Positions 2-47,744 of a stretch of 64,000 nucleotides of DNA are shown piece after piece. The stretch lies in the NCBI GenBank assembly GCA_003598975.1, contig QZIJ01000074.1:1-64000 (forward strand), read 5' to 3'. Both the position numbers and the translations under genes were made by a program. Source of the stretch: Anaerolineaceae bacterium. Lineage in GTDB: Bacteria; Chloroflexota; Anaerolineae; Anaerolineales; Villigracilaceae. Position 1 is the first letter of the stretch. Every line of letters begins with the position of its first letter. A model generated the notes under the pieces. That model was not told the origin of the DNA, did no database searches, and saw only the letters and a program-made list of their open reading frames with translations.

Positions 2-1180
2 TATCCCAACGGGGAAATCCCGGTACGCGGACAGATCGCGGTGGAAGCCCCGGGCGCGGAAGACGAGTGGTTCGTTGGCGTGTTCGGCGAGGTAATCACC
101 TTTGTGACCGGTGCGGCCCCGAAAACGGGATTCATCGGCGCGGAGTTCGGACAGGCAAACGATCTGTTCGTGCGCCAGAATAAGATGGTCTATCTAGATG
201 CGCCCAGCGGAAAGCAACCCCCGCAGATGGAATGGATCTTCACGCGCCTGGATAATGGCGCGAAAGTTGGCGTAAATTTCAATCTGGCGGTCATCACTCC
301 GGTGGCGACCCCTGAACGCCAGGAAATGGGCAAGAAGATGGCAGCCGGCACAGCCACAGAAGAAGAGGCGGTCGATTACTACGAGTACTGGAATGCCAGG
401 GCGAAGTTTGTCTTCGAAAACGCGGATACGCTGGAAGGCTTCTTCAACGTCAAAGTCTATCAGGAGGGCACCGCCACAACTGCCGACGCCATCGTGGAGG
501 AGTCTGAATCTATCGCGGCTGAGGATTTCGCCTGGGACCAGGCATACATCACCGAAGTGCCGCCGATCCTGATGAACGAACCTTACTTTGGCATCTTCGG
601 ACAGACCTCGGGGCCAGTCCCCTATTACTACGAAGAAGCCGTCAAACTGGCCGGACATTCCTGCGGCGCGACCACAGGCGCATGGACCATCACCAAGAAG
701 GCGCTTGAAGTGCTGTATCCCGATGGTGAAATCCCGGTGCGCGGCCAGATCGCAGTGGAGGCTCCGGGCGCGGAAGATGAATGGTTCGTCGGGGTGTTTG
801 GCGACATCATCACCTTTATCACCGGCGCGTCTCCCCACACCGGTTTCAATGGCTCGGAGTTCGGACAGGTAAATCCGCTCTTCGTGCGCCAAAACAAAAT
901 GGTCTACAGCGAAGAACCCACCGGTCAACTCCCCCCGATGCGGGAATGGATCTTTACTCGACTGGACACTGGCAAAAAAGTAGGCGTCAAGTTCAATCTT
1001 GTGATCATCCTGCCAATTCCCACCCCTGCGCGCACGGAAATGGGCAAGAAGATGGCGCTGGGACAGGCTACTCCCGAAGAGGCGGCTGATTATCAGAAAT
1101 ACTGGAATGATCGCGCTATCTTCGTCCTGGAGAACGCCGACCTTGACGGCTTCTTCACCGTGACCGTATACGAAGAGTAA
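2..1180 (+). CDS. FmdE-like protein with internal duplication (5' partial)
   Basis: The reading frame runs in from the left edge, so the N-terminus is missing; 392 residues are visible. It contains two copies of a ~200-residue unit. Both share YPxGEIPVRGQIAVEAPGAE, then GVFG, ITGA, EFGQ, LFVRQNKMVY and EWIFTRLD. The second copy is preceded by GHSCGATTGAW. This His/Cys box followed by a small-residue helix resembles the metal-binding start of FmdE-family domains (PF02663), whose usual box is GHxCPG. FmdE proteins accompany molybdenum or other redox enzymes, but their exact role is unclear. No membrane segment is visible. The FmdE assignment rests on motif resemblance only; the duplication is seen directly. 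Confidence 0.6.
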   Translation, partial: YPNGEIPVRGQIAVEAPGAEDEWFVGVFGEVITFVTGAAPKTGFIGAEFGQANDLFVRQNKMVYLDAPSGKQPPQMEWIFTRLDNGAKVGVNFNLAVITPVATPERQEMGKKMAAGTATEEEAVDYYEYWNARAKFVFENADTLEGFFNVKVYQEGTATTADAIVEESESIAAEDFAWDQAYITEVPPILMNEPYFGIFGQTSGPVPYYYEEAVKLAGHSCGATTGAWTITKKALEVLYPDGEIPVRGQIAVEAPGAEDEWFVGVFGDIITFITGASPHTGFNGSEFGQVNPLFVRQNKMVYSEEPTGQLPPMREWIFTRLDTGKKVGVKFNLVIILPIPTPARTEMGKKMALGQATPEEAADYQKYWNDRAIFVLENADLDGFFTVTVYEE

Positions 1181-1298: not shown

Positions 1299-1314
1299 TG
1301 TGATACCTTTCACA
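1299..1314. promoter_or_regulatory. Crp-like operator TGTGA-N6-TCACA (site 1)
   Basis: The sequence is TGTGATACCTTTCACA, a perfect match to the symmetric Crp-family consensus. It lies 31 bases upstream of the ATG at 1346. The same palindrome type precedes 6133 and 6907, and a Crp/Fnr gene lies nearby at 3267. It sits so close to the start codon that it may act by repression or by activating a promoter with a very short leader. Confidence 0.7.
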
Positions 1315-1345
1315 CAGAATTCCCATCTTACACTTGGAGGATGTT

Positions 1346-2191
1346 ATGAAAGAAACTTCGCAAACCAACCGCAACATCATGGCCGTCATTGCCGCTGTGA
1401 TCGGGCTGGTGATGGCTTATGTCATCCCATTCCTGGTACAAACATCGCTGGAACGGGTGTTGGTCTATTTGTCCGCCCACATCAAGGCGGGGAACCCCGC
1501 CTTTTCGAGTGGGCTGCCGCTTTTTGACTTCTCCTATTCCATCTGGCGGGCGCTTATCTTCGCGGGCGGCGCAGGATTGGTGGTCATCGCGTGGGAGATC
1601 AAAAAAGGCAGTGAGTGGACTTTCCCTCTCGCGCTGACTCTTTTTGCCCTGCCCTCCGTTGGCGGCTTCTACATGTTCCTGCCCTACATTAGTTGGGTCC
1701 CTGGCTTTCCTCTGCCGATGGTCATTTCCTTTATCGGGCTGGCGGGCTACTGGAGTTTCATCTTCCTCCATCACGGCACAAAAATCCAAAAATGGGTCCG
1801 CTTTGCAGCGTTGACGTTCATTGGCATGTTGACCACGCACGCCTTCACCATCGGGATCGGCGCGCAGCGCACCATGGCAACCCGCCCGGGTCATCCCATG
1901 TATCCCGATTTCACCTGGTGGCTCTTCCGCTGGGCCGGCGAAGTGAACTGGGTGGCGGTCATCTTCCTGTTCATGTCCATTCCCCTGCTGGCAATGGGAA
2001 AGCGCCGCGGCTGGTGGATGGCGGTCATCTCATCCATCGCGATCCTGATGATCAACGTCCCGACACAATTCATTCGAACCAAAACGCTGGATTATTTATA
2101 TGGCGCGCTCCTGGCCGCTGGCGTGTTGGTCTTCACGCTGGTTCCATATTTCAAGAAGCACCTGTTGGAAGACAAATCACCAGAGGCCTGA
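1346..2191 (+). CDS. Uncharacterised multi-pass membrane protein (281 aa)
   Basis: ATG at 1346 is chosen because GGAGG lies 5 bases upstream; an in-frame TTG at 1334 overlaps that site. The protein has about seven or eight hydrophobic segments with several aromatic and histidine residues near the membrane (FLHHGT, THAF, RPGHPMYPDF). I recognise no family. It is the first gene of the Crp-controlled unit leading into the small membrane protein and the polyferredoxin, which suggests a structural or anchoring role in a membrane redox complex. That role is inference from position only. Confidence 0.7.
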   Translation: MKETSQTNRNIMAVIAAVIGLVMAYVIPFLVQTSLERVLVYLSAHIKAGNPAFSSGLPLFDFSYSIWRALIFAGGAGLVVIAWEIKKGSEWTFPLALTLFALPSVGGFYMFLPYISWVPGFPLPMVISFIGLAGYWSFIFLHHGTKIQKWVRFAALTFIGMLTTHAFTIGIGAQRTMATRPGHPMYPDFTWWLFRWAGEVNWVAVIFLFMSIPLLAMGKRRGWWMAVISSIAILMINVPTQFIRTKTLDYLYGALLAAGVLVFTLVPYFKKHLLEDKSPEA

Positions 2192-2218
2192 TTTCAGGCG
2201 CATTCTTCTTTGGGTCAT

Positions 2219-2239
2219 CCCCCTCTGTTTTGGAGGGGG
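2219..2239 (+). promoter_or_regulatory. Hairpin covering the ribosome binding site of the 46-aa gene
   Basis: CCCCCTC (2219-2225) can pair with GAGGGGG (2233-2239) around a 7-nt loop. The right arm overlaps the G-rich tract that leads into the AGGAAA ribosome-binding region of the ATG at 2254. It could limit translation of the downstream pair or act as a processing or attenuation site. No function is shown. Confidence 0.35.
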
Positions 2240-2253
2240 AGGAAACTCCCATT

Positions 2254-2394
2254 ATGAAAATCAACCCTCGCTACTACCCCTACATCATCCTCGCCGCATA
2301 TGTGATTTTCCTCCTGCTGGGCATTCTGCTTGGATTTGGCCCAGAACGCGGCGGCGAGCATGGTCTCCGGTTGTTGATGGAGGCCTGCGTATGA
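2254..2394 (+). CDS. Small single-span membrane protein (46 aa)
   Basis: The peptide starts MKINPRYYPY and has one strongly hydrophobic helix (residues ~10-28), followed by a short charged tail rich in Gly and Glu. Its stop overlaps the ATG of the polyferredoxin (ATGA at 2391-2394), so the two are probably translationally coupled. A G-rich ribosome-binding region lies ~11 bases upstream. No family is recognised; it may be an assembly or accessory peptide for the polyferredoxin. Confidence 0.55.
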   Translation: MKINPRYYPYIILAAYVIFLLLGILLGFGPERGGEHGLRLLMEACV

Positions 2395-3218
2395 CCGCAA
2401 AACCAACCTCACTTTCCAAAAGCCGCCGCATCATCCAATGGCTGGTCGTGATCGGCACCTTTGTGATCGGTCTGCGGCACATCATGCCAGGTGAAGCCTC
2501 GCGCGGCGGATCCTTTGACTCATTCTGCGCGTTCGGCGGAATCGAAACGCTTCTCCCCTACCTCTTTAGCGGACACCTGCTCAAGTCCACGAACCTGCTC
2601 AACTTCTCGGTTCTAATCGCCACACTGGGAGTCTCGCTTGTGGCAGGGCGGGCGTTTTGCGGCTGGCTATGCGGACTGGGCGCGATCCAGGATTTTGTTG
2701 CAGAGTGGACGCGGAAACTGCTCGGCGAGAAGCGGCACATACGCGGCAAAGCCAGCAAAACGATCCTGCCCCTGCGCCTGCCCGTCGCCGTGGACCGTCC
2801 GCTTCGTTACGCAAAATATCTGGTTCTGGCAATCATCCTGATTGCCAGCCTGTATGCGACATTTCCGCCTCTGCGTGAGTTCTGTCCTGTGCGTGCTGTC
2901 TTCGGCCTCAAGATGACCTCATTGTTGTGGCTGACACTCGGCATCTTCCTGGTGGGCTCAATTTTAGTGGAACGCTTCTGGTGCAAGTATCTCTGTCCGC
3001 TCGGAGCCGCGCTAGCCATCTTCAACAAGATCTCGCCTGTGCGCCTTGTCTCGGACAACGATCACTGCAACAACTGCGGGCGCTGTGACATCGAATGTTC
3101 GATGGACATCCAGGATGTGCCAAACAACCTGGCCGATGCTGAGTGCATCCGTTGCCTCGAATGTCTGGATACCTGCACGCGGGATGGATCGCTGGAACTG
3201 AAAGTAATCAAGCCCTGA
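2391..3218 (+). CDS. NapH/NosR/CcoG-type membrane polyferredoxin
   Basis: This 275-residue protein has about five membrane helices and the paired Fer4_5-type boxes FCGWLCGLGA (near residue 88) and FWCKYLCPLGA (near residue 195). A C-terminal soluble part carries two 4Fe-4S motifs, CNNCGRCDIEC and CIRCLECLDTC. Such proteins pass electrons across or along the membrane to periplasmic reductases (NapH, NosR) or help oxidase assembly (CcoG). The CxxxCP box of the first pair reads CGLG rather than CPLG. The neighbouring Crp/Fnr regulator and NirV-like gene favour an anaerobic respiratory role, which is inferred. Confidence 0.85.
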   Translation: MTAKPTSLSKSRRIIQWLVVIGTFVIGLRHIMPGEASRGGSFDSFCAFGGIETLLPYLFSGHLLKSTNLLNFSVLIATLGVSLVAGRAFCGWLCGLGAIQDFVAEWTRKLLGEKRHIRGKASKTILPLRLPVAVDRPLRYAKYLVLAIILIASLYATFPPLREFCPVRAVFGLKMTSLLWLTLGIFLVGSILVERFWCKYLCPLGAALAIFNKISPVRLVSDNDHCNNCGRCDIECSMDIQDVPNNLADAECIRCLECLDTCTRDGSLELKVIKP

Positions 3219-3266
3219 ACATTTCGAAGTAAAATGAAGATGCGCATCCGAAAGGGCGCATCTCTC

Positions 3267-3980
3267 ATGACCCTTGACACGCATCCCCCTCCCCAGCCTC
3301 TCGCTCGGCTGAAAGCGCTCCTCGCCAGAATCCGCCACTTTGATGGCCTCCCGCCCGAGGTCCAGGAACGAATCGCCGCGTCCGCCTCCCTGCGTCACTT
3401 CGAGGCGGGACAAGTCATCTACATCGAAGGCGAGCCTGCGGAGGAGTTCTATCTGCTCGAACGCGGCTGGATCAAAGCCACGCGCATGTCGCGTGATGGA
3501 CGCGAGCAGGCGATGTTGTTCCTTGAATCGGGGGAATTTTTTGGGGATATTGCCGTGTTCAGCGGTACAACTTATCCTGGCACGGTGGTGGCGCTCGAAA
3601 ATGTGGATGTGTGGGCGATTCCTGCCAGAGAATTTTTGGCAATAACTGAACAGTATCCCGCACTAGCGATGGCCGTCATCCATCACTTGAGTGACCGCGT
3701 GTTGCATTACATCAGTTTAGTGGAAGACCTGTCCCTGCGGAATGTGGAGGCGCGACTGGCAAATACTCTCCTGCAACATGCCGAAGCGCGCGACGGACAA
3801 TTGTTCGTACCGCGCCGCGATTGGACCACGTTCGATGAAATGGCTGTGCGGCTGGGAACCGTGCGGGATGTGTTGAGCCGCGCTCTGAAGACGCTCGAAG
3901 CAGATGGACTGCTCAAGGTTGAGAAACAGGCCATCATCCTGCTCGACCCGAAAGGTCTGAGGGAACGCGGTAATTTGTGA
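3267..3980 (+). CDS. Crp/Fnr-family transcription regulator without cysteines
   Basis: An N-terminal cyclic-nucleotide-binding beta-roll (to residue ~125) is followed by the dimer helix and a C-terminal helix-turn-helix (TTFDEMAVRLGTVRDVLSRA). The protein contains no cysteine, so it cannot carry an FNR-type Fe-S cluster; a DNR-like heme/NO sensor or a nucleotide sensor remain possible. The recognition helix has R-D-x-x-x-R where E. coli CRP has R-E-x-x-x-R, which fits the TGTGA-N6-TCACA sites seen at 1299, 6058 and, with one mismatch, 6856. ATG 3267 gives the usual family length (237 aa); starts at 3234 or 3240 would add 9-11 residues. Confidence 0.9.
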   Translation: MTLDTHPPPQPLARLKALLARIRHFDGLPPEVQERIAASASLRHFEAGQVIYIEGEPAEEFYLLERGWIKATRMSRDGREQAMLFLESGEFFGDIAVFSGTTYPGTVVALENVDVWAIPAREFLAITEQYPALAMAVIHHLSDRVLHYISLVEDLSLRNVEARLANTLLQHAEARDGQLFVPRRDWTTFDEMAVRLGTVRDVLSRALKTLEADGLLKVEKQAIILLDPKGLRERGNL

Positions 3981-4010
3981 AATTTAGCACGACAAAAGTC
4001 GTATGCAAAA

Positions 4011-4055
4011 AACGGGTCAGTCTGTACACTGGAGCAGATTGACCTGTTTTCTTTT
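4011..4055 (+). terminator. Hairpin with T-run between the crp-like and BON genes
   Basis: AACGGGTCAGTCT pairs with AGATTGACCTGTT (two or three G-T wobbles) around a ~12-nt loop, followed by TTTTCTTTT. It is a good intrinsic terminator for the regulator gene. It ends only 11 bases before the BON start codon, so it may also act as a leader attenuator for that gene. Confidence 0.65.
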
Positions 4056-4065
4056 GTGAGACGAT

Positions 4066-4347
4066 ATGAAAAGCATTCCTGTTCAAACCACCGACGAAAA
4101 ACTGCGCGCCGCCATCCTATCCCGTTTTGCGGCGGATGACCGCACCGCCTACGCCAACCTGCGCGTGGGCGTGTTGAACGGGATTGCTCACTTGGCAGGT
4201 GTGGTGGCATCCATCGAAACACGCATCCTCGCGGCGGAATTGGCAGAGGAGGTGCCAGGCATACGCGGAGTGGTCAACCGCATCGAGGCGCCAGACGCGC
4301 CCAGCCCGGCGAGAACGGTCAATCTAGACCTGGAAGAAAAACATTGA
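4066..4347 (+). CDS. BON-domain protein (93 aa)
   Basis: The sequence follows the BON pattern: an N-terminal helix (DEKLRAAILSRF), a strand-turn with VLNGIAHLAGVVASIETR, then AAELAEEVPGIRGVVNRI. BON domains bind phospholipids or act as accessory modules in envelope and stress proteins. No signal peptide or membrane helix is present, so it is probably cytoplasmic or membrane-associated. It is a single domain followed by a short acidic tail, and sits 30 bases upstream of the tandem membrane paralogues. Confidence 0.8.
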   Translation: MKSIPVQTTDEKLRAAILSRFAADDRTAYANLRVGVLNGIAHLAGVVASIETRILAAELAEEVPGIRGVVNRIEAPDAPSPARTVNLDLEEKH

Positions 4348-4377
4348 AACATCCAATATTAATCAAGGAGATGCGTT

Positions 4378-5193
4378 ATGAAAGGTAACAACAAATTAGG
4401 GGCCGCACTGGCGGTGCTTGGCATTCTGGCGGGTATCCTGTGCCTGTATTTCATTGCAAATACCTACAACGCGGTTATCCACACCCATTTCAACGCGGGT
4501 GATTGGGAAGAGAGCAATACCGTGCGCATCGTCTATGCGGTGCTTGGCTGGCTGGGAACCGCCGCAGGCGCGCTCTCTGCCGCGGTTTTGTGGGGCTTCC
4601 TGCATAAACAGGATTGGGCATGGTTCTGGGGCGCAGTTGCCGCGACCGTCCTCCTGCTGGCGGGATTCTTCCCGATGATCCCCGCCGCGGACAGCGGATT
4701 GCCCGTCCCCACGATGTGGGTATTCCTGCTGGGGGCGGTCATGTGGTTCGGGATGCTCTTCATCGGCGGCGTGAGTGGGAAGATCATCACGCTCACCTTC
4801 GTCGCAGGGCTGGCCTACGTGCTGACCTTCATTGACGGCGTCGCGCCGCTCTCCAAATTTCAGGGCACCTTCCAGACACCGACAACCTTTGTCGAGAATC
4901 CGAACACATTCTGGAATGGGATGTATGTCGTTTCTCAACAGGTTAATTGGTGGGGAGCGGCGGCCTGGGCGATCTTCATTTTCGCGGCTCTCAAGCAAAA
5001 ATCATGGGCGATTCCCGTTGGCATCTTTGCCGCGGTCATGTCCATGTTTGGCGGATACCCGATGGGCATCCACAACGTGGCGGAGGTACAGCGTTTTTCG
5101 ATGTTCCTGCCCGCGCCCATTCTAAGCACAATATTACTGATCGTACTCTTATTGCCCGGTACACAAAAACTACTGGGCATCAAACAATCGTAA
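4378..5193 (+). CDS. Uncharacterised 7-TM membrane protein, paralogue A
   Basis: 271 residues with about seven membrane helices, preceded by AAGGAG. It aligns along its full length with the next gene: shared stretches include KLGA.LAV.GIL.G, LGWLG.AAGAL, WAWFWG.VAAT, LAGFFP.IP, PTMWVFL, AYVLTFIDGV, VNWWGAA.WA and MSMFGG.P.G. An extra loop with QTPTTFVENPN lies before the fifth helix. No known family is recognised. Repeated Trp and aromatic residues near helix ends suggest an integral subunit of a complex rather than a typical transporter, but this is speculative. Confidence 0.7.
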   Translation: MKGNNKLGAALAVLGILAGILCLYFIANTYNAVIHTHFNAGDWEESNTVRIVYAVLGWLGTAAGALSAAVLWGFLHKQDWAWFWGAVAATVLLLAGFFPMIPAADSGLPVPTMWVFLLGAVMWFGMLFIGGVSGKIITLTFVAGLAYVLTFIDGVAPLSKFQGTFQTPTTFVENPNTFWNGMYVVSQQVNWWGAAAWAIFIFAALKQKSWAIPVGIFAAVMSMFGGYPMGIHNVAEVQRFSMFLPAPILSTILLIVLLLPGTQKLLGIKQS

Positions 5194-5214
5194 ACCAACA
5201 ACAAGGAGATATTC

Positions 5215-6006
5215 ATGAAAAACAACAACAAATTAGGCGCAACATTGGCGGTGGTCGGCATCCTGACCGGCCTGCTGGTTCTGTTCCTGATGGCAAGCAT
5301 TTACCAGGTCAACATTGACGGCAAAATCGCCGGGGAACGTCCCGACGAGGCCATCACAGTGCAGATTGTCTTTGCCCTGCTCGGCTGGCTGGGAGTGGCC
5401 GCTGGGGCCTTGTGGGTCATGGTTCTGTATGGCTTCCTGTACAACGCCAAATGGGCCTGGTTCTGGGGGACGGTGGCCGCGACGATCCAGATTTTGGCGG
5501 GATTCTTCCCGATCATCCCGCCGTCCAGCATTGGATTGCCCGCACCGACCATGTGGGTTTTCCTGATCGCATTCGCGCTGTGGTTTGGAATGCTCCTCAT
5601 CGGCGGCGTGGACAAGAAGATCATCGCGCTGGCCTTCGTCAGCGGACTGGCCTATGTGCTGACGTTTATTGACGGTGTGGGCGCGATCTCGCGTCACCAG
5701 ACCGAAGCGAAGGGTTTCATCAGTTCGATGTACGCCATGTCGCAGATGGTGAACTGGTGGGGCGCGGCGGTTTGGGCGGCATTCATCTTCGGACTGGTCA
5801 AAGGCAAATCGTGGACCTTGCCTGTCGGCGTTTTTGCGGCGGCCATGTCCATGTTTGGCGGGTTCCCAGTCGGTGTGACGGATGTGATCATTCAGGGACG
5901 CTTCTCCATGTTCCTGGTCGCGCCTGTGATGAGCACGGGATTGCTCGTCTACCTGTTGCTCCCGTCCACGCGGAGGATGCTCGAAGCGTGGAGCGCGAAA
6001 GAGTAG
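5215..6006 (+). CDS. Uncharacterised 7-TM membrane protein, paralogue B
   Basis: 263 residues, clearly a tandem duplicate of the preceding gene with the same helix order and conserved WAWFWGTVAAT, AYVLTFIDGVG, VNWWGAA and MSMFGGFPVG boxes. It has its own AAGGAG 21 bases after the previous stop, so both copies are likely made from one transcript, perhaps as a heterodimer. Loss of the acidic extracellular loop found in copy A and a charged C-terminal tail (EAWSAKE) distinguish it. The family is unknown to me. Confidence 0.7.
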   Translation: MKNNNKLGATLAVVGILTGLLVLFLMASIYQVNIDGKIAGERPDEAITVQIVFALLGWLGVAAGALWVMVLYGFLYNAKWAWFWGTVAATIQILAGFFPIIPPSSIGLPAPTMWVFLIAFALWFGMLLIGGVDKKIIALAFVSGLAYVLTFIDGVGAISRHQTEAKGFISSMYAMSQMVNWWGAAVWAAFIFGLVKGKSWTLPVGVFAAAMSMFGGFPVGVTDVIIQGRFSMFLVAPVMSTGLLVYLLLPSTRRMLEAWSAKE

Positions 6007-6057
6007 GAAACGCGCGTAAAGCGGCGCGCCGCCCTGAGGTCAGGTGTGAAGCGGAAG

Positions 6058-6073
6058 TGTGACCTATGTCACA
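6058..6073. promoter_or_regulatory. Crp-like operator TGTGAC-N4-GTCACA (site 2)
   Basis: TGTGACCTATGTCACA is a perfect palindrome with arms TGTGAC/GTCACA. If CATAAT at 6096-6101 is the -10 box, transcription would start near 6107 and the operator centre would lie at about -41.5, the classical class II activating position. The regulated gene would be the one at 6133. Confidence 0.75.
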
Positions 6074-6079
6074 GAAACT

Positions 6080-6097
6080 TGACATCGGCTTGTGTCA
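6080..6097. promoter_or_regulatory. Second inverted repeat TGACA-N8-TGTCA beside Crp site 2
   Basis: A 5-bp perfect inverted repeat with an 8-bp spacer lies 6 bases downstream of the Crp-like operator and overlaps the presumed -10 region. It has the half-site TGACA rather than TGTGA. It could bind a repressor or a second Crp dimer. Confidence 0.4.
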
Positions 6098-6132
6098 TAA
6101 TTCACTTAAATCCAAAAAAGGAGAATGCACAA

Positions 6133-6747
6133 ATGACACCAATCAAAGACATCGTCTTCCTGCTCTTGACGGGCGGCCTCGCCGCCTACCTTTGCTGGTA
6201 TTTCTGGCAAAGGTACAACCACGCTTCGCGCAAGGCACTGCACAACATCTACTATCTGATGGGGTTTGCAGTGCTTTTGGTTTCGGGCGTGTTGCTGATC
6301 TTCCTCGGCCTCGACATCCTGGCTTCGCCCTACGTGCTGACCGTGGCCAGCCTCATCCCGTTGGGAATTTCGATGGGATTGGCTGAAGAGTACTTCCCCT
6401 CCTGGAAGAAGTATTTCAAGTGGTTCGCGCTAGTCGGCTTCCTTGCCATCGCAATCACCAGCATTGGCGGGATGGACTCGCTGAAGAAGATCGCCGTGCC
6501 GCTCTTCCACGGCGTGGCGGGACTTGTGATCTTCCTCGGCCCATTCGTGGCAAAGGGCGCGCCGAAGGGATTCTGGTGGGTTGGCATCGGCGGACTGCTG
6601 ATCGGACTCGGTGGAATCGCGCTGGCGTTCATTTCGATGGGCGCGCAGTTACTGTTCTTCAGCCCCGCGTTCGTGATGTTGATCCTCACCCCGCTCCTGT
6701 TCCTGATGGCGGGCGCGTTCACGCTCGGTTTCACGAAAAAGGGATAA
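6133..6747 (+). CDS. Uncharacterised membrane protein, ~204 aa (paralogue of 10341-10946)
   Basis: ATG 6133 is preceded by AAAGGAG at the right distance. Six or so hydrophobic helices fill the protein, with a small charged segment (EEYFPSWKKYFK). It matches the 201-aa protein at 10341 in the last two-thirds: HG.AG..IFL, F.GVGGALIG-like GIGGLLIGLGG, and a final LL.LM.....GF.FG pattern. The pair flanks the His-rich protein, SUMF1-like and CtaB-like genes, so both may be subunits or chaperones of the same membrane assembly. Family unknown. Confidence 0.7.
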   Translation: MTPIKDIVFLLLTGGLAAYLCWYFWQRYNHASRKALHNIYYLMGFAVLLVSGVLLIFLGLDILASPYVLTVASLIPLGISMGLAEEYFPSWKKYFKWFALVGFLAIAITSIGGMDSLKKIAVPLFHGVAGLVIFLGPFVAKGAPKGFWWVGIGGLLIGLGGIALAFISMGAQLLFFSPAFVMLILTPLLFLMAGAFTLGFTKKG

Positions 6748-6749
6748 TC

Positions 6750-6811
6750 TGTAGGGGCGACCCGCCAAGATCGGCAAGAATCACCGCACACTCTGACGGG
6801 TCGCCCTACCT
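6750..6811. repeat. Dispersed palindromic repeat (TGTAGGGGCG type)
   Basis: GTAGGGGCGACCCG at 6751-6764 pairs with CGGGTCGCCCTAC at 6797-6809 (one bulge). A second member with the same ends lies at 52155-52204. It sits directly after the stop at 6747 and may also serve as a transcript end. Confidence 0.6.
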
Positions 6812-6855
6812 GTTTTGCAATTATTTGTCTTTTGTCAAAGACAGCCAGCCTGATT

Positions 6856-6871
6856 TGTGATATTTTTCTCA
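6856..6871. promoter_or_regulatory. Crp-like operator (site 3, one mismatch)
   Basis: TGTGA-TATTTT-TCTCA differs from TGTGA-N6-TCACA at one base. It lies 35 bases upstream of the ATG at 6907. Together with the sites at 1299 and 6058 it makes three related operators in front of three units of the same cluster. Confidence 0.55.
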
Positions 6872-6906
6872 TAGACTGGCAATAATCCAATTTAGGAGTA
6901 CATCCT

Positions 6907-8442
6907 ATGCAATTCGTCAAAGACCGTTTCGACTATCTCTTTCGTTCCACGCGCGGGCTGACTCTGGTCGCCATCGCGGTGGTTTCTGTCATCACTGCCA
7001 TCTTCGGCACGCTTTCGGGACCGATGGTGGAATGGGGCATCAAAGACATCACGGTGCGCGTGTTGGGAATGAAACTGGTGGAGGCGGAGCGTGAGGGCCG
7101 TATCATCATGCTCTACCACACCATTGCGATGACCGTCACTGCCATCGAAGTCTATTTCATGACCGAGATGCTGTCGATGAAACGCCATGAGCAGACCATC
7201 ATCAATGGCGTCATCACCACTGGCTACCTGACTGCTGTCATCTTTGGACTGCTTTTCGCCTACTGGGGACACAACTTCATCTTTCACGGGTTGTTCCTGG
7301 TCGGGCAGTCGCTGGTCTTCTTCGCGGGCATCCTGCTGGCAATCGCGCTCAACCCCTGGAAGAAAGAATACCTGCTGGACAAAGACTCGCCTCATGCCCG
7401 TTCCAAAGGCGGTCTTGACCTGGAACGTGTGGCCTTCTTTGTCATGGCCATCGCCATGCTCATCTCCGCCACCTTCGGCGCGGTGACAGGTTCATTCTGG
7501 GGCAACGGCCACGAAACCTTCCTCGGCGAAGATCTCATCCGCAACCCGCACAAGACCGAATTGCAGAAAGCCATCATCGGTCACCTGCACATCATGCTCA
7601 CCCTGCTGGCTGTGGGCATCACGCTCATCGTTGGGCGCTGGGTCAAATTCAAGGGTGTTCTGCACAAAATCGCCATGCCTTTGATGATCATTGGCATTAT
7701 CGGCACCACCACCGGCGCGCTGTCGGTTGTCTGGCTGGAATGGGCGCACACCATCATTTACGTTGGCTCCACCTTCATCATGCTAGCGGCACTGATGTGG
7801 GTCATCTACTCCTGGGATATGCTCATCAAGGAAGGCACGGCGGGCATCAAGAAACCCAACTTTTTCCAGAAGATGGGTGCGTTACTCAAAGATCCGCTCA
7901 AGTTCGGGCCTGGCTGGCAGATGGTCTTCATGAACTTCACGGTCAGCGGCGTGGGCATCTTCATGGCCGTCAAACTGGAGGAAATCTTCCGTGTCTGGCC
8001 GCACCGCGAGGAGCGCATCACCCTCACGGGACACTGGCACATCCTCTCGGCGCTGGTCGCCACCATCATCCTGATGTATTTCGCCGACCTTTCGGGATTG
8101 AAGGGCAAAGTCCGCAAGTGGTTCGGCTGGGCCATCATCATCCTCTCCGACGTCGCTTTCGGCTCGGCCACCGTCTTCTCGATGAAGCGCTTATTCGTGG
8201 ATGAAATCAACCAGCAAGGCGTGGTTAATACCACCATGCTGTTGATGGATTTGGGGCTGGGCATCGTCCTGGTCATCCTGGCAATGTTCATGGTCTGGAG
8301 GCTCTACGACTTGTTGCAAAAGAAAGGCCATTGGGCAAACGAATATGCGGCGGAACGCAGGCTCAACGCCGAGACGGAACTTGTGGAACAAAAGCGCAAG
8401 ATCGAAGAACTCAACGCCATCCTGAAGGAGGTGTCGAAATGA
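6907..8442 (+). CDS. His-rich multi-pass membrane protein, possible heme protein (511 aa)
   Basis: About 12 membrane helices followed by a short C-terminal coiled coil (RRLNAETELVEQKRKIEELN). Histidines fall inside or at the ends of helices: H71 (LYHTIAM), H226/H228 (GHLHIMLTLLA), H281 (EWAHTII) and H376/H378 (TGHWHILSALVATI). The two GHxH helices look like repeats of one another, each followed by a LKGK/FKG turn. The pattern recalls heme-ligating helices II and X of heme-copper oxidase subunit I, but I see no CuB His-His helix and no clear family match. A CtaB-like heme O synthase lies 1 kb downstream. Heme binding is inference; the membrane protein itself is certain. Confidence 0.7.
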   Translation: MQFVKDRFDYLFRSTRGLTLVAIAVVSVITAIFGTLSGPMVEWGIKDITVRVLGMKLVEAEREGRIIMLYHTIAMTVTAIEVYFMTEMLSMKRHEQTIINGVITTGYLTAVIFGLLFAYWGHNFIFHGLFLVGQSLVFFAGILLAIALNPWKKEYLLDKDSPHARSKGGLDLERVAFFVMAIAMLISATFGAVTGSFWGNGHETFLGEDLIRNPHKTELQKAIIGHLHIMLTLLAVGITLIVGRWVKFKGVLHKIAMPLMIIGIIGTTTGALSVVWLEWAHTIIYVGSTFIMLAALMWVIYSWDMLIKEGTAGIKKPNFFQKMGALLKDPLKFGPGWQMVFMNFTVSGVGIFMAVKLEEIFRVWPHREERITLTGHWHILSALVATIILMYFADLSGLKGKVRKWFGWAIIILSDVAFGSATVFSMKRLFVDEINQQGVVNTTMLLMDLGLGIVLVILAMFMVWRLYDLLQKKGHWANEYAAERRLNAETELVEQKRKIEELNAILKEVSK

Positions 8443-9386
8443 AACGGACACTCTTCATCCTGACCCTGCTTGCACTGACCCTTGCCGCCTGCGGCACCGC
8501 GCCCAGCATCGGCGCCATCACGCCTCCCTTCGTGGACCCTGGAATTGATCCCGAATCCTGGGCCGTTGTCCCCGCTGGGGTCTTCCCCTACGGCCAGCAC
8601 GATCACATGACCGAAGTGAACGGCTATGAAATCATGGTCACCGACGTGACCAACGAGCAATATGCCCGCTTCCTGAACGAAGCCCTTGCCGATGGAACGA
8701 TCCAAGTCGGCGAAGTGGAAGTGGAGGCAGGCGAACTGGTCTGGCGCGAAACGGGGGTGTACGGCGCGTACCCTGGCGACCCCTTCAACGGTTACGAACA
8801 TGAAGAAGAGATCAAGGCTGGCAACAAACTCTACATCGCGACCACGATTGAAGGTTTGCGCCTGACCTTCGATGGCACACAGTTTGCCGCCATCCATGAA
8901 TACAGCAACCACCCGATGACCATGGTCACATGGTTCGGCGCGAACGCCTACTGCCAGTATTACGGCTGGCGTCTGCCAACCGAAATCGAATGGGAAAAAG
9001 CCGCGCGCGGCACAGAATTGGTAAACGGCCACGGACTGCCCTATCCCTGGGGTGAGCATATCGAACGCAACAACGCCAACTACTACTCGTCCTTCGATCT
9101 GTTCGAGAAAATGTTTGGCAAACTAGGCAACACCACGCCCGTCGGCTTTTTCAACGGCAAGACCTACGACGGCTACGCCACCCTCGATTCCACCTCGCCC
9201 TACGGGCTGTACGACATGGCTGGAAACGTCTGGCAGTGGATGGGCGACGACTATCCCGACCAGCATTACCGTATGATGCGCGGCGGCAGTTTCTACACCT
9301 ACGAAGTGGATCTACGCGTCTGGAAGAACAACTCGGCAGGGCCGCAATATTACAGCCCCCAAGTCGGCTTCCGCTGTGCGCGATAG
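8439..9386 (+). CDS. NirV/SUMF1-like (FGE-sulfatase domain) lipoprotein
   Basis: 315 residues. A signal peptide ends in the lipobox TLAACG, so the protein is probably anchored outside the membrane. The formylglycine-generating-enzyme fold is shown by TNEQYARFLNEAL, RLPTEIEWEKAARG, YDMAGNVWQWMGDDY, MMRGGSF and the terminal GFRCAR. Non-catalytic members such as NirV accompany copper nitrite reductases; true FGE enzymes need a pair of active-site cysteines, which I do not see clearly here. Its ATG overlaps the stop of the His-rich membrane protein (ATGA), which implies coupled expression and a shared task. Confidence 0.85.
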   Translation: MKRTLFILTLLALTLAACGTAPSIGAITPPFVDPGIDPESWAVVPAGVFPYGQHDHMTEVNGYEIMVTDVTNEQYARFLNEALADGTIQVGEVEVEAGELVWRETGVYGAYPGDPFNGYEHEEEIKAGNKLYIATTIEGLRLTFDGTQFAAIHEYSNHPMTMVTWFGANAYCQYYGWRLPTEIEWEKAARGTELVNGHGLPYPWGEHIERNNANYYSSFDLFEKMFGKLGNTTPVGFFNGKTYDGYATLDSTSPYGLYDMAGNVWQWMGDDYPDQHYRMMRGGSFYTYEVDLRVWKNNSAGPQYYSPQVGFRCAR

Positions 9387-9407
9387 GAAATGAGCACGTA
9401 GACAGGT

Positions 9408-9433
9408 ACGCAAGTACACAGGTATACTTGCGT
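9408..9433. other. Hairpin ACGCAAGTA/TACTTGCGT between the NirV-like and CtaB-like genes
   Basis: A 9-bp perfect stem with an 8-nt loop, without a T-run. The surrounding GTACACAGGTATAC-like text resembles the short GGTAAT/GGTTAC repeats seen elsewhere in the flanks. It may be a dispersed repeat or a transcript-stabilising hairpin. Confidence 0.45.
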
Positions 9434-9477
9434 CTCCATTCCAAGCGTATTTACCTGTAATTCTCCGAGGAGACATC

Positions 9478-10341
9478 ATGTCCGTTCTTGCCACAAAATT
9501 CCGCCATTACTGGAGCCTCACCAAGCCGTTGCAGACAGGCTTGCTTCTTGCAACAGGTCTGGCGGGTTACATGAGCGCGCGCTGCCCCGTCATCAACATG
9601 GGAACGATTCTCGGAGCGGCAGGGAGTCTCTTCCTCGCCATCGCGGGGAGCACCGTGCTCAACATGTGGTGGGACCGCGATATCGACGCCAAAATGGGGC
9701 GCACCCAGCACCGCGCCACATCATCGGGACAGGTAACTGAAAACGAGGTCTTGCGAGTCGGCTTGCTCCTCTCGGTCGTCGGCGTTGGCATTGCAGTCGC
9801 GATGGATGCGCTCTTCGGTCTGATCGTCTTCGCAGGACTCTTCTTCGATGTGGTCGTTTACTCCATCTGGCTCAAGCGCCGCACCGCCTGGAGCATCGTC
9901 TGGGGCGGCGTTTCGGGCGCCATGCCCATCTTGGCAGGCCGCACCCTCGGTCTCGGCTCCATTGACTGGATCGGCCTGACCCTCGCGCTGGGAGTCCTCC
10001 TCTGGATCCCGACTCACACCCTCACCTTCAGCATGAAGTTCGCCAAAGACTACGCCGCGGCCTGCGTACCCACCTTCCCGTCCACGTATGGACTCGGATT
10101 CACTCGCGTCACCATCGCAATCTCCAGCGTCCTCGCCGCGCTGGCCATGGTCATTGCAGGCTACGGTCTCGGCATGGCATGGGGCTTCCTGCGCCTGCTC
10201 AGCGTGCTCTCGGTGGGCCTGCTCATGCTTGCCTTCGCCATCACATTCAAACCCTCCGAGCGCGTCAACTTCGGCCTCTTTAAATACGCATCCGTCTACA
10301 TGCTGGCGGCAATGATTTTGGTCGTAATCGAAGTGATGTAA
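9478..10341 (+). CDS. ctaB: CtaB-like heme O synthase (protoheme IX farnesyltransferase)
   Basis: 287 residues with about eight helices typical of UbiA prenyltransferases. The first Asp-rich motif NMWWDRDIDAKMGRT is the one that distinguishes CtaB (NxxxDxDIDxxMxRT). The second motif region is weaker (SMKFAKDYAAACVPTFPSTYG). CtaB adds a farnesyl group to heme B, making heme O for heme-copper oxidases. The start is supported by GAGGAGA. No oxidase subunit with recognisable CuA lies in the window, so the consumer of heme O may be the His-rich protein at 6907, or an oxidase elsewhere. Confidence 0.8.
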   Translation: MSVLATKFRHYWSLTKPLQTGLLLATGLAGYMSARCPVINMGTILGAAGSLFLAIAGSTVLNMWWDRDIDAKMGRTQHRATSSGQVTENEVLRVGLLLSVVGVGIAVAMDALFGLIVFAGLFFDVVVYSIWLKRRTAWSIVWGGVSGAMPILAGRTLGLGSIDWIGLTLALGVLLWIPTHTLTFSMKFAKDYAAACVPTFPSTYGLGFTRVTIAISSVLAALAMVIAGYGLGMAWGFLRLLSVLSVGLLMLAFAITFKPSERVNFGLFKYASVYMLAAMILVVIEVM

Positions 10342-10946
10342 TGAAAATGTCCCCCCTCGACCGCGTCCTGCTCCTCATCACTGGCATCCTCGCCGCATAT
10401 CAGGTCGCGGTCGGCATTGACGGTTTTGACACCGTCCCCATCATCGCTTACACCATCGCCTTCGGCGTCCTTCTTGTGGCGGGACTCCTGCTCATCATCT
10501 GGGGATTTGAAGTGTTGGACAGCCCGACGATCGTTGTTGTCTCGACGGCCATCCCGCTCTCACTTTCGCTTGGACTCGTCTGGCAACACCTCGCTTCATT
10601 TCGGACCTCGTACCTGATCTTCGCCATTCTGGGTTTCCTCGCTGTGACGTTGACCCGCTCGATTCCCGTTCCTGGCAAAATTCCCACCATCGTCCTTGCC
10701 CTCGTCCACGGCATCGCGGGCATGACGATCTTTCTGCTTCCGATCATCCTCTCGGTTCAAGGAAAGACTCCGCCGCTCTTCTCTTTCGTCGGTGTTGGCG
10801 GCGCGCTGATCGGCATCGGCGGCCTCCTGCTTTCGTTCCTGAAGGCAGGCCGTCCCATCCTCTCGCGTGGAACAATATTGAAAGTCCTGCCTGGCCTGCT
10901 CCTGCTCATGACAATTTGTTTTGTGGCAGGCTTCAAGTTCGGGTGA
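10341..10946 (+). CDS. Uncharacterised membrane protein (201 aa; paralogue of 6133-6747)
   Basis: The ATG shares its A with the preceding TAA stop, so translation is coupled to CtaB. About six helices; the sequence VHGIAGMTIFLLPII, VGVGGALIGIGGLLLSF and a terminal CFVAGFKFG matches the protein at 6133. The N-terminal half has diverged. It belongs to the ctaB-like operon and no family is recognised. Confidence 0.7.
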   Translation: MKMSPLDRVLLLITGILAAYQVAVGIDGFDTVPIIAYTIAFGVLLVAGLLLIIWGFEVLDSPTIVVVSTAIPLSLSLGLVWQHLASFRTSYLIFAILGFLAVTLTRSIPVPGKIPTIVLALVHGIAGMTIFLLPIILSVQGKTPPLFSFVGVGGALIGIGGLLLSFLKAGRPILSRGTILKVLPGLLLLMTICFVAGFKFG

Positions 10947-10948
10947 AC

Positions 10949-11419
10949 ATGGAATTGCTTTCCAACCTCAAATCTATGCGCGGGGAAATGAAAAAGAGCC
11001 GTTACAAAATCTGGCTTCGCGCCTTCCTGCTGATTCAATTCTCGATTCTGTTCTCCTTGTACTTCTTCCGCGACATCGGCAACGGATATTTCAGTTGGAA
11101 AAGCGTGGTGCTGGTATTCGCGTCCTTCGTTCCAATCGGCTTTCTTCTGAGTCTCATCGTCCCCATGAAAGCGGATATGGAACTTAGGACCGTGACACTC
11201 TCACTGGACCGCGTCTATCTTTTCCTGATCTGGCTACTGGTCATTGCCAAAGTCATCATTGGACACATCCCACCGTTCACCCCTGAAGCCGATTTCATCA
11301 TGTCCGCCATTCTCGGCATCATGTTCGGGCGGCTGGGCGGGATTGGTTTGCGGGTTCGCCAGCTCAAAGTGCAGAATGGATTTATTGGAGAGCAAACAAA
11401 AATCACAGGTCACGCATGA
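10949..11419 (+). CDS. Small 4-TM membrane protein (156 aa)
   Basis: ATG 10949 follows the previous stop by 2 bases. A basic N-terminus (MRGEMKKSRYK) precedes about four helices and a short polar tail. An upstream in-frame TTG (10916) lies inside the preceding gene and is less likely. The family is unknown. The stop codon lies within the loop of the downstream terminator. Confidence 0.6.
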   Translation: MELLSNLKSMRGEMKKSRYKIWLRAFLLIQFSILFSLYFFRDIGNGYFSWKSVVLVFASFVPIGFLLSLIVPMKADMELRTVTLSLDRVYLFLIWLLVIAKVIIGHIPPFTPEADFIMSAILGIMFGRLGGIGLRVRQLKVQNGFIGEQTKITGHA

Positions 11420-11438
11420 CGCGTGACCTGATTTTTTT
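11406..11438 (+). terminator. Intrinsic terminator of the ctaB-like operon
   Basis: CAGGTCACGC and GCGTGACCTG form a perfect 10-bp stem around ATGAC, followed by TTTTTTT. The stop codon of the preceding gene (11417-11419) is inside the loop, so the coding region runs into the terminator. Confidence 0.9.
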
Positions 11439-11456
11439 CTACAAAAGGAGTATGCA

Positions 11457-12140
11457 ATGTCCACGAATAGTTTCCTCGCAAAATCCCTGCGCTTCATCGG
11501 CATCCTGCTGATGGCGCTCACGGGCGGACTTACCCTGCTGGGCGGCATCGGTACATCATGCGTTGCCATCAATCCCACTGGTTTTGGTGATAGCATGGCC
11601 CCGCTGGCAAAACTCCAGTGGTTGTACATCCTCTTCGTGCTGGCGGGAATCGTCATTGGTGTGCTGGGCATCCGCGCCACCATCACGCTCATCAAAGGGG
11701 CGGACAAGTCCTACCGTGATGCGTTGTACGCCTTGATCGCGGGCGCGGTGGTCGGTTTCCTACACATCTTCGTCTCGCGTGCCCTGCGTGGCAATTCCAT
11801 GCCCGTGGACGCGGTGGTATACACGACCATCCTCACGCTGATCATTTTCCTGCTCTTCAAAATTCCCACCATCTGGCAGGGAGTGGACTTCGCCAAGGCC
11901 AAAGCCGCTAACAACAAACCTGCGGGCGGCGCGGCGGCCATCCTGCTCGGCATCCTGACGCTGACCATCCAATACACGATGGGCCCCACCCACACCTGGG
12001 ACAATGTCAACTACGCCAACGCCTTCAACCTGTCCATGGCAGGGATTGGGCTTGGACTATTCATCCTCGGTGCGACGTTGTTTACTCCGTGGGGAATATT
12101 GAAAAAATCCCGAAGGGATGAAATGATTGTAAAGGCATAA
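11457..12140 (+). CDS. Uncharacterised membrane protein (227 aa)
   Basis: AAAGGAG supports the ATG. About six helices; a conserved-looking extracellular segment IGTSCVAINPTGFGDSM follows the first helix and a GPTHTWDNVNYANAFN loop precedes the last. It has its own promoter region because a strong terminator lies just upstream. It is the last gene of the + strand cluster. No family is recognised. Confidence 0.65.
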   Translation: MSTNSFLAKSLRFIGILLMALTGGLTLLGGIGTSCVAINPTGFGDSMAPLAKLQWLYILFVLAGIVIGVLGIRATITLIKGADKSYRDALYALIAGAVVGFLHIFVSRALRGNSMPVDAVVYTTILTLIIFLLFKIPTIWQGVDFAKAKAANNKPAGGAAAILLGILTLTIQYTMGPTHTWDNVNYANAFNLSMAGIGLGLFILGATLFTPWGILKKSRRDEMIVKA

Positions 12141-43200: not shown

Positions 43201-44124
43201 TTACTGGTTTGACACAGCCACCCGGTTGCGCCCTTCGTGCTTGGCGCGATATAAAGCAGTATCAACAGATTTCAACAATGCCGCACTTGTGATGCCCTCC
43301 TTTGGAAAGATTGCGACGCCGATCGAAAGCGTGATTTCAAGCGCCTGGCCTTCGAATTGACTGTTGAGGTGCCGGGCATGCTCGCATAATCGTTCGGCGC
43401 GCTCGATGGTCACTTCCAGTGACGCATCGGGCAGGGCGATGATGAACTCATCGCCGCCATAACGGCAGGGAATATCCTGTACGCGGAAATGTCCCAGTAG
43501 CAGCTCTCCCAATTTGCTCAGAACCACATCGCCCGCAGCGTGGCCGTGGATGTCGTTGAAGCGCTTGAAGTCGTCCACATCCAGCATTATTATGCCCAGC
43601 GAATTGTGATTACGGGTGGCGCGATCTAATTCACGTTCCAGGGTCTCTTCCAAATAGCGACGGTTGAATAAACCGGTAAGATAGTCGCGAGCAGACTGCT
43701 CGCGCAGAAGAAGTGTTTCATTTTTGAGCAGGGCCTCCTGTGCTTGTTTACGTTCTGTGATGTCGCGGATATTGCATTGGATGACCTTTTCTTCTCCTAC
43801 CATATATACATTGCTGACGAATTCCACTTGAACGAGCCGCCCGTCTTTCGCTCGTAGCGGCAGATCTTCATAGCGAATGTATTCATTCCTCTGCAATGCC
43901 TCGAAGGCTTCCCGGCTGGCCTCAATATCCTTGAACGCGCCCATTTCCCATAACTTTTTTTCCATGAACTCTTCACGCGAGTATCCCAGCATATCGATCA
44001 GAAAAGGATTGACATCCGCGATCGCCCCCGTCTCGGCATTCAGAATTAAAATACCATCCTGAGCCGCTTCAAATAACCGGCGATAGCGGACTTCTGAAGT
44101 TTTTAGTTTTTGCAAATCATCCAT
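43201..44124 (-). CDS. PAS-GGDEF diguanylate cyclase
   Basis: 307 residues: one PAS domain (RRLFEAAQDGILILNAETGA, WEMGAFKDIEASREAFEALQ) and a GGDEF domain with intact YGGDEF and a RxxD-free I-site region. It is soluble. The PAS domain is nearly the same as the first PAS of the HD-GYP protein upstream, so the pair probably senses the same signal with opposite outputs. It is under promoter copy 10. Confidence 0.9.
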   Translation of the reverse strand: MDDLQKLKTSEVRYRRLFEAAQDGILILNAETGAIADVNPFLIDMLGYSREEFMEKKLWEMGAFKDIEASREAFEALQRNEYIRYEDLPLRAKDGRLVQVEFVSNVYMVGEEKVIQCNIRDITERKQAQEALLKNETLLLREQSARDYLTGLFNRRYLEETLERELDRATRNHNSLGIIMLDVDDFKRFNDIHGHAAGDVVLSKLGELLLGHFRVQDIPCRYGGDEFIIALPDASLEVTIERAERLCEHARHLNSQFEGQALEITLSIGVAIFPKEGITSAALLKSVDTALYRAKHEGRNRVAVSNQ

Positions 44125-44218
44125 ATCCGTATACCCGATCTACGATGTGTGGCTGGTTGTTGGGATCCTTTCTCTGCTGAATTTAAGCATCTAGACGCGC
44201 GAAGAGATGCTGTCATTA

Positions 44219-44286
44219 AACTTATAACAAATATTTCCTGGCATCATCCCCCAACCGGGGAGAGTTTGACTCCCCCAAGTGGGGGA
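44219..44286 (-). promoter_or_regulatory. Shared bipartite promoter element, copy 10
   Basis: P1 reads ATCCCCCACTTGGGGGAG, a more perfect palindrome than elsewhere. P2 is reduced to CTCCCCGG plus GGGGATG. -10 is TAAGTT (44219-44224) at 20 bases. Precedes the PAS-GGDEF gene. Confidence 0.6.
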
Positions 44287-44295
44287 TGCCTGAAT

Positions 44296-46938: not shown

Positions 46939-47009
46939 GTCTGCCGGGCCCCTTTCTTGTACGAAGCGGTTGAGTAATTCGAACACGCGAATAAATATAC
47001 CGGCACTTA

Positions 47010-47078
47010 ATTCTATGATACAAACTCCCCAGCCGCCTCCGTCAACTGGGGAGTTTGTAACTAGTCCATTTGGGGGAG
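47010..47078 (-). promoter_or_regulatory. Shared bipartite promoter element, copy 11
   Basis: P1 reads CTCCCCCAAATGGACTAG, P2 arms ACTCCCCAG and CTGGGGAGT are perfect, the middle box is GGAGG, and -10 is TAGAAT (47010-47015). It lies between the NarL-type regulator gene and the HD-GYP gene and drives the latter. Confidence 0.7.
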
Positions 47079-47084
47079 ATACGT

Positions 47085-47744
47085 TTACATCACCACGGGG
47101 GGGACAATCCCATTGCGCAACGCGAGGGATACTGCTTCTGTGCGGCTGGTAACCCCTAATTTGGACAGGATGTTACTGACATGGGATTTGATCGTGGACG
47201 GACTTACAGTTAAGCGTCCGGCGATCTGCGTATTGTTCAATCCTTCGATCATCAAACTTAGTACTTCGCGCTCACGCTCCGTCAGATCGAGGCCGGGCGC
47301 GGGCGGTTGGTTGGCTATTTCAACAAGAGATTGAGCCACCTCAGGGGAGAGCGTGGTGCGACCGGCGTGCGCAGCGCGGATCGCCCAGGCAAGGTCATCC
47401 GCAGTGACATCCTTGAGGAGATAACCGATCGCTCCGGCTTCCAGCGCGCTCTTGATGATCTTCCCCTCTTTGAAACTGGTCAGCGCAATGATCTGCACGT
47501 GTGGAAATTTCTGGCGGATGGCGCGCGTGGTTGCGGCTCCATCCATGACCGGCATGACCATATCCATCAGGATCACGTCTGGCAAAACCTCGGCGCAAAG
47601 TTCAATGGCGGCCTCGCCGTTTTCAGCTTCGCCCACCAGTTGCATGTCACTAAACACCTTTAAGAAAGTCGCCAGTCCGCGGCGGACCATGGTGTGATCG
47701 TCAACGAGCATGATGCGAATGGGTTTGGAGGGGGAGATTGTCAT
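47085..47744 (-). CDS. NarL/FixJ-type response regulator
   Basis: 219 residues: receiver domain with VDDHTMVRRGL, phosphoacceptor LMDMVMPVMDG and conserved Lys in YLLKDVT; then a LuxR-type helix-turn-helix (LTEREREVLSLMIEGLNNTQ, STIKSHVSNILSKLG). Its ATG overlaps the kinase gene (4 bases), so they are a pair. NarL-type dimers bind palindromes, so this protein is a fair candidate for binding the shared promoter element. That link is inference. Confidence 0.93.
   Translation of the reverse strand: MTISPSKPIRIMLVDDHTMVRRGLATFLKVFSDMQLVGEAENGEAAIELCAEVLPDVILMDMVMPVMDGAATTRAIRQKFPHVQIIALTSFKEGKIIKSALEAGAIGYLLKDVTADDLAWAIRAAHAGRTTLSPEVAQSLVEIANQPPAPGLDLTEREREVLSLMIEGLNNTQIAGRLTVSPSTIKSHVSNILSKLGVTSRTEAVSLALRNGIVPPVVM

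Follow-up and report, generated by a model that had tools for sequence, protein, structure and literature searches.

The window analysed here, a stretch of 64,000 nucleotides from contig QZIJ01000074.1 of an Anaerolineaceae bacterium, begins with a gene cluster that is a real, conserved and hitherto unannotated system. Its central product, a protein of 511 amino acids with 12 transmembrane (TM) helices designated M511, is most likely a variant of the heme-copper oxidase (HCO)-fold oxidoreductases and a divergent heme-O enzyme, to judge from a structural model, seven invariant histidines and co-inheritance with CtaB, the heme O synthase of the same cluster. These three lines of evidence make the proposal more specific than the original prediction for this DNA, in which the cluster was suggested to encode a new type of membrane oxidoreductase built on the 511-residue protein. 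M511 showed no close homology to any non-heme family and the core of the cluster proved to be conserved as a unit, so that the earlier suggestion survives; its status as an enzyme is what we infer. The source genome (G000) is a metagenome-assembled genome (MAG) of 84% completeness, and the window starts at base 1 of its contig (C37).

Co-inheritance of M511 with a distinct heme O synthase

The distribution and phylogeny of CtaB link this enzyme to M511. The CtaB of the cluster scored 215.9 bits with TIGR01473 (cut-off 210.3), retained N62, D66 and D70 and, from this family membership, would be expected to make heme O. A profile scan detected M511 in 66 of 396 Anaerolineae genomes. Among the 117 genomes of the class without a protein matching the HCO family PF00115, 13 carried M511, and CtaB was found in 12 of these 13 as against 21 of the 104 lacking M511 (Fisher p 4.9e-7), although these counts ignore phylogeny and MAG incompleteness. 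The cleanest HCO-free carriers, G072 (99% complete, 1% contamination) and G367 (94%), had no match to PF00115 and, beside M511, the CtaB of the cluster as their only one, and genomes with both an oxidase and M511 usually had two CtaB paralogues. In a phylogenetic tree, the M511-linked CtaBs and those of oxidase operons were split by a 100/100 branch. Two CtaBs first labelled as oxidase type fell on the M511 side and turned out to be unlinked CtaBs of the M511-positive genomes G192 and G046: the only CtaB of G192, unlinked to M511, grouped with the M511-linked lineage, and that of G046 shared a contig with M511 at a distance of ∼150 kb. Co-occurrence and separate lineage together are the strongest evidence that this CtaB serves M511 itself or a constant companion of it.

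Predicted fold of M511

Sequence searches gave M511 no family. Pfam returned no match at E-values up to 1, PF00115 and NnrS (PF05940) included, there was none in NCBIfam or among PDB sequences (phmmer and profile hmmsearch), and when M511-positive genomes were scanned with PF00115 the M511 locus was never among the matches. An AF2 (AlphaFold2) model was built from 15 sequences of 67–87% identity and reached middling confidence (pLDDT 70.5, pTM 0.76). The best VIA-align match of this model was the cbb3 oxidase 8smr_E (Z 19.8, 399 residues, 4.2 Å), and Z was 17.9 with cNOR and likewise with aa3; all 50 of the 50 PDB entries listed by VIA-align were HCO subunit I, with Z 15.7–19.8 over about 370–430 residues. 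In Foldseek, the first six matches were HCO chains (E 0.012–0.075, probability 0.99–1.00) and the first non-HCO match had a probability of 0.21. As a yardstick we used M204, a 7-TM protein of the same cluster, whose AF2 model (pLDDT 92.9) matched just generic 7-helix receptors with Z up to 13.5. With Z 19.8 over 12 helices, the M511 match thus exceeds the generic level. Among the structure matches of the M204 model no COX III-like one was seen, which does not exclude such a relationship.

The kinship of M511 to HCOs nevertheless has two points against it. It rests on one middling AF2 model from 15 similar sequences, and hhalign comparisons of M511 profiles, shallow as well as deep, with several HCO subtypes gave nothing above decoys (best E 0.013, with eNOR, versus 0.041 for the best decoy). 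An hhalign match that paired M511 helices V–VIII with oxidase helices IX–XII (E 0.0016, probability 16%) vanished with a deeper profile and was not used. Of the checks proposed with the original prediction, structure prediction thus returned the HCO subunit I fold in the AF2 model, and profile searches against HCO families no significant match. As profile–profile comparison does not back homology, we call M511 an HCO-fold protein and not a member of PF00115; that it is an HCO-fold heme protein appears very probable from the model.

Invariant histidines and the putative metal site

M511 has 15 His, seven of which (H71, H127, H226, H228, H281, H376 and H378) were invariant in 30 sequences of down to 33% identity. 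They lie, in helix order, in II, IV, VI, VI, VII/VIII, X and X, and their spacings of 155/53–55/95 compare with 143–208/49–50/86–105 in real HCOs. H71 in helix II and the HxH of helix X (H376/H378) are thus invariant and in HCO order and spacing. Helix VI reads GHLHIMLTL, with H226 and H228, and helix VII holds a single His in the motif WAH (H281), whereas in the true HCOs of the same genomes helix VI carries HPxVY, HPAQQ (eNOR-like) or HSIAN (sNOR-like) and helix VII the pair HH.

M511 resembles HCO subunit I (cbb3 CcoN, ba3, aa3, cNOR NorB) in its predicted 12-helix fold over ∼400 residues, helix II His, helix X HxH and linked heme O synthase, and departs from it in an identity of 8–14%, the missing PF00115 match, HxH in place of HPxVY, one His in place of the helix-VII HH, and an additional invariant His in helix IV. 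With the eNOR, sNOR and gNOR types (named in PMC8756737) it shares the HCO fold (predicted for M511), the lack of an active-site Tyr and the occurrence in Chloroflexi, but the HCOs of these types found in this analysis have a PF00115 match and an intact HH pair in helix VII. NnrS, a heme- and copper-containing 12-TM protein, is likewise His-containing and found in the context of nitrosative stress and nitrogen oxides, yet M511 gave no PF05940 match.

By order, spacing and invariance of these histidines, a low-spin heme would have H71 and H378 as its ligands and a high-spin heme H376, while H226/H228 and H281 would bind an adjacent non-heme metal. This would be a remodelled CuB/FeB site that lacks the second His of helix VII as well as the Tyr of O2 reductases. 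The heme O, with or without heme B, would enter M511, as co-inheritance, fold and histidines suggest. The His-richness pointed out in the original prediction is a conserved trait of M511 alone: M204 and M201 have one conserved His each, M227 two, and M285, M271 and M263 none. M271, M263, M285 and M204 were also considered as further heme proteins and dropped, as they have no or one conserved His only.

Gene content and conservation of the cluster

From the contig start to position 12140, fifteen plus-strand genes follow one another, several of them overlapping:

41–1180, plus strand: FmdE-like repeat protein (PF02663 weak, E 0.0076, below cut-off)
1334–2191, plus strand: M285, 7-TM membrane protein of no family, with homologues in other loci and no conserved His
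2254–2394, plus strand: unannotated small protein of 46 amino acids with a single TM helix; overlaps the polyferredoxin start; 55–87% identity in other M511 loci
2391–3218, plus strand: NapH/MauN-like membrane polyferredoxin (Fer4_5 PF12801, 1.3e-17; TIGR02163, 98 bits, below cut-off)
3234–3980, plus strand: Crp/Fnr-type regulator (PF00027 and PF13545)
4066–4347, plus strand: BON-domain protein (PF04972, 1.6e-12)
4378–5193, plus strand: M271, 7-TM membrane protein of no family, paralogue of M263 (57% identity)
5215–6006, plus strand: M263, 7-TM membrane protein of no family, paralogue of M271
6133–6747, plus strand: M204, 7-TM membrane protein, paralogue of M201 (39% identical); its one invariant His is H126
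6907–8442, plus strand: M511, 12-TM HCO-fold protein (AF2 model, invariant His), proposed heme-O oxidoreductase
8439–9386, plus strand: SUMF1/FGE-domain lipoprotein, NirV-like (PF03781, 2.4e-39, 136 bits)
9478–10341, plus strand: heme O synthase CtaB, in the lineage linked to M511 (TIGR01473 over cut-off; tree)
10341–10946, plus strand: M201, 7-TM membrane protein, paralogue of M204
10916–11419, plus strand: M163, small membrane protein, exact start uncertain (ORF, tblastn)
11457–12140, plus strand: M227, membrane protein with conserved C35, H103 and H179

Pfam and NCBIfam named just the polyferredoxin, regulator, BON, FGE and CtaB proteins, apart from the weak FmdE match, and no CXXCH motif was present among the cluster proteins. 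The gene positions given earlier were correct, profile matches bore out the polyferredoxin, Crp/Fnr regulator, SUMF1/FGE lipoprotein and heme O synthase, and the overlaps at 2391 (with the 46-amino acid ORF), 8439 and 10341 were confirmed. The ‘ten or more’ membrane proteins of unknown family that had been announced came to nine, several of which form paralogue pairs (M271/M263 and M204/M201). The cluster had been taken to start at 1299; the start must be moved upstream, since the FmdE-like gene belongs to it. Its 5′ end is missing at the contig start, where the frame is open to base 2, and the gene also lies upstream of the cluster in locus L018 and in the complete relative genome G005, with 87–88% identity by tblastn.

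When all cluster genes were compared with relatives by tblastn, M204–M511–FGE–CtaB–M201 formed a block in most Anaerolineae loci examined, and the other membrane genes were more variable; the M511 core travels together across relatives, in keeping with the expected conservation as a unit. On the Chlorobiota side, the profile scan found M511 in one of 296 genomes (G400), a MAG whose locus (L028) has M511 (67% identical) together with FGE and CtaB. No homologue was found in the viral contigs scanned. The SUMF1-like lipoprotein lies between M511 and CtaB in most relatives, whereas in a far branch (f91; L100 and L101; M511 34% identical) the lipoprotein is lacking and the M511 and CtaB genes overlap directly, which marks M511 plus CtaB as the irreducible unit. 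Comparison of locus L072 (G224) with L070 (G005) showed the upstream part (FmdE, M285, polyferredoxin, Crp, BON) to be dispensable and M511–FGE–CtaB to be retained. A recurrent pairing of membrane proteins with regulators was also seen at L022:1835–6298, where three M285-like 7-TM genes have Crp-type regulators among them.

The lipoprotein gene starts 4 bases before the M511 stop, an overlap kept in relatives. The catalytic Cys pair of FGE lies near the C-terminus. In the lipoprotein, Cys occurs only at C18 (lipobox), C172 and C313, and the catalytic pair thus appears to be absent. It is like NirV, the SUMF1-domain protein beside nirK, in its FGE/SUMF1 domain and N-oxide gene neighbourhood, and unlike NirV in being a lipoprotein that is translationally coupled to M511 and apparently lacks the Cys pair. 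The conserved coupling prompts the conjecture that its role, at the outer face, is one in maturation or stabilisation. The NapH/MauN-like polyferredoxin is a candidate electron donor on the quinol side, and from the gene content electrons might pass from the quinol pool through it, or through an outside cytochrome, to M511. A possible electron donor is encoded upstream of M511 at L093:6992–9083 (G964), by a multihaem cytochrome gene whose matches are MtrC/MtrF-like and c7-like.

Nitrogen-oxide context

In G005, the cluster is followed by three divergent Crp-type genes and then by nirS and M392, nirS lying ∼10 kb from M511. This NirS, of 675 amino acids, has the C1-C2-NirS layout (two CXXCH and a cytochrome D1 domain). 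A Crp gene, a cupin, cytochrome b561 and M392 occur both at the nirS locus of G112 and around M511 in G064, and the small gene M121 is common to nirS loci and other M511 loci. M392 (12-TM, no Pfam match) recurs beside nirS and M511 clusters (L104:7573–8751, L108:5732–6910, L112:1095–2327 and L024:6907–8130). Within the family of the window, NirS was found in 6 of 14 genomes with M511 and in none of 11 without (p 0.02), with phylogeny and MAG incompleteness not factored in. The original prediction had noted that no terminal oxidase was present. This is true of the cluster but not of G000 as a whole, which encodes NirS (contig C148) and, in the part that has been assembled, a single HCO that groups by score with the HPxVY type. 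The same combination of NirS and HPxVY-group HCO was seen in G055 (97% complete). A NosZ domain search of these genomes gave no match, but neither did its controls.

In four loci (L064:8824–11943, L097:1599–5421, L098:7073–10114 and L099:2606–5221), a gNOR-like HCO is followed immediately by a divergent M511 homologue. This HCO has Asp in place of the helix-VI His and likewise in place of the active-site Tyr, and in L064 and L097 a gene for an NDH-2 type NADH dehydrogenase precedes the pair. The gNOR-like HCO and the divergent M511 homologue are possibly a two-protein reductase. Other distant M511 homologues come immediately after genes for a flavodiiron protein and a hemerythrin/DUF438/PAS protein.

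Proposed function and alternatives

On the basis of predicted fold and genomic association, M511 could well be a nitric oxide (NO) reductase with HCO fold and heme O, the most likely of the readings considered, though with somewhat less than an even chance. NO, the product of the neighbouring NirS in the relative, would then be reduced at the heme/non-heme metal pair. More tentatively still, M511 may found a branch of the HCO fold that is invisible at sequence level and has a heme O synthase to itself as well as a remodelled metal site, and it may be the NO reductase that annotations of NirS-type Chloroflexota have missed. For most Chloroflexi with C1-C2-NirS, a survey reports that no nor gene is recognised, which it calls counterintuitive (PMC8756737), and M511 is a concrete candidate gene for this gap. 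If this were true, NO reduction or another respiratory reaction would be invisible to homology searches in a widespread bacterial class, estimates of N2O producers would be biased, and there would be a second way to build a binuclear site within the HCO fold.

Several observations weigh against an NO reductase. Helix VI has no Tyr at the place it takes in HPxVY, four residues after the His, which marks O2-reducing HCOs, and its active-site position has none of the residues E, Q, N or D that are typical of NO reductases (PMC8756737, Table A4). The three-His CuB/FeB site is not found, with HxH in helix VI and one His instead of the helix-VII HH. The NirS association carries the caveat on phylogeny and MAG incompleteness given above, and four of the six NirS-positive genomes also carry an eNOR-type HCO. 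NirK is not associated with M511, being over cut-off in 8 of 14 genomes with M511 and 7 of 11 without, and is common in the family either way. Finally, at the thresholds used neither NirS nor NirK was detected in G072 and G367, where M511 would have to serve in detoxification of NO from outside, or in some other role.

It is less likely, though a serious alternative, that M511 is an HCO-fold heme-O protein without catalytic activity, be it a partner in electron transfer or quinol oxidation, a sensor of NO, or an NnrS-like factor for assembly or nitrosative stress. The four loci in which divergent homologues adjoin a complete gNOR-like HCO, as a partner subunit would, argue for it, as do the two M511-positive genomes without a known NO source and the incomplete set of canonical binuclear-site ligands. 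M511 is, however, not solely an HCO partner, since 13 genomes have it without a recognised HCO, 12 of them with CtaB, and a simple electron carrier would need fewer than seven invariant His. O2 reductases are the best-known users of heme O, and HCO-free anaerobes could use M511 against O2; it seems improbable, however, that M511 is an HCO-fold reductase of another substrate (O2 at very low concentration, or N2O), tied to denitrification by shared regulation only, as helix VI lacks the Tyr and the named neighbours point to nitrogen oxides. We give little credence to M511 being unrelated to HCOs, with the AF2 likeness wrong or reflecting a generic 12-helix arrangement and CtaB serving another client, since in spite of the middling pLDDT, the shallow alignment and the missing sequence-profile support, the match spans all 12 helices with every listed entry an HCO and a Z well above that of M204, the His spacing is HCO-like, and in G072 and G367 the CtaB of the cluster is the sole one and no PF00115 protein was found.

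Elsewhere in the window, at positions 43201–49312 on the minus strand, the translations suggest a row of signalling proteins of the PAS, GGDEF and HD-GYP types together with a histidine kinase.

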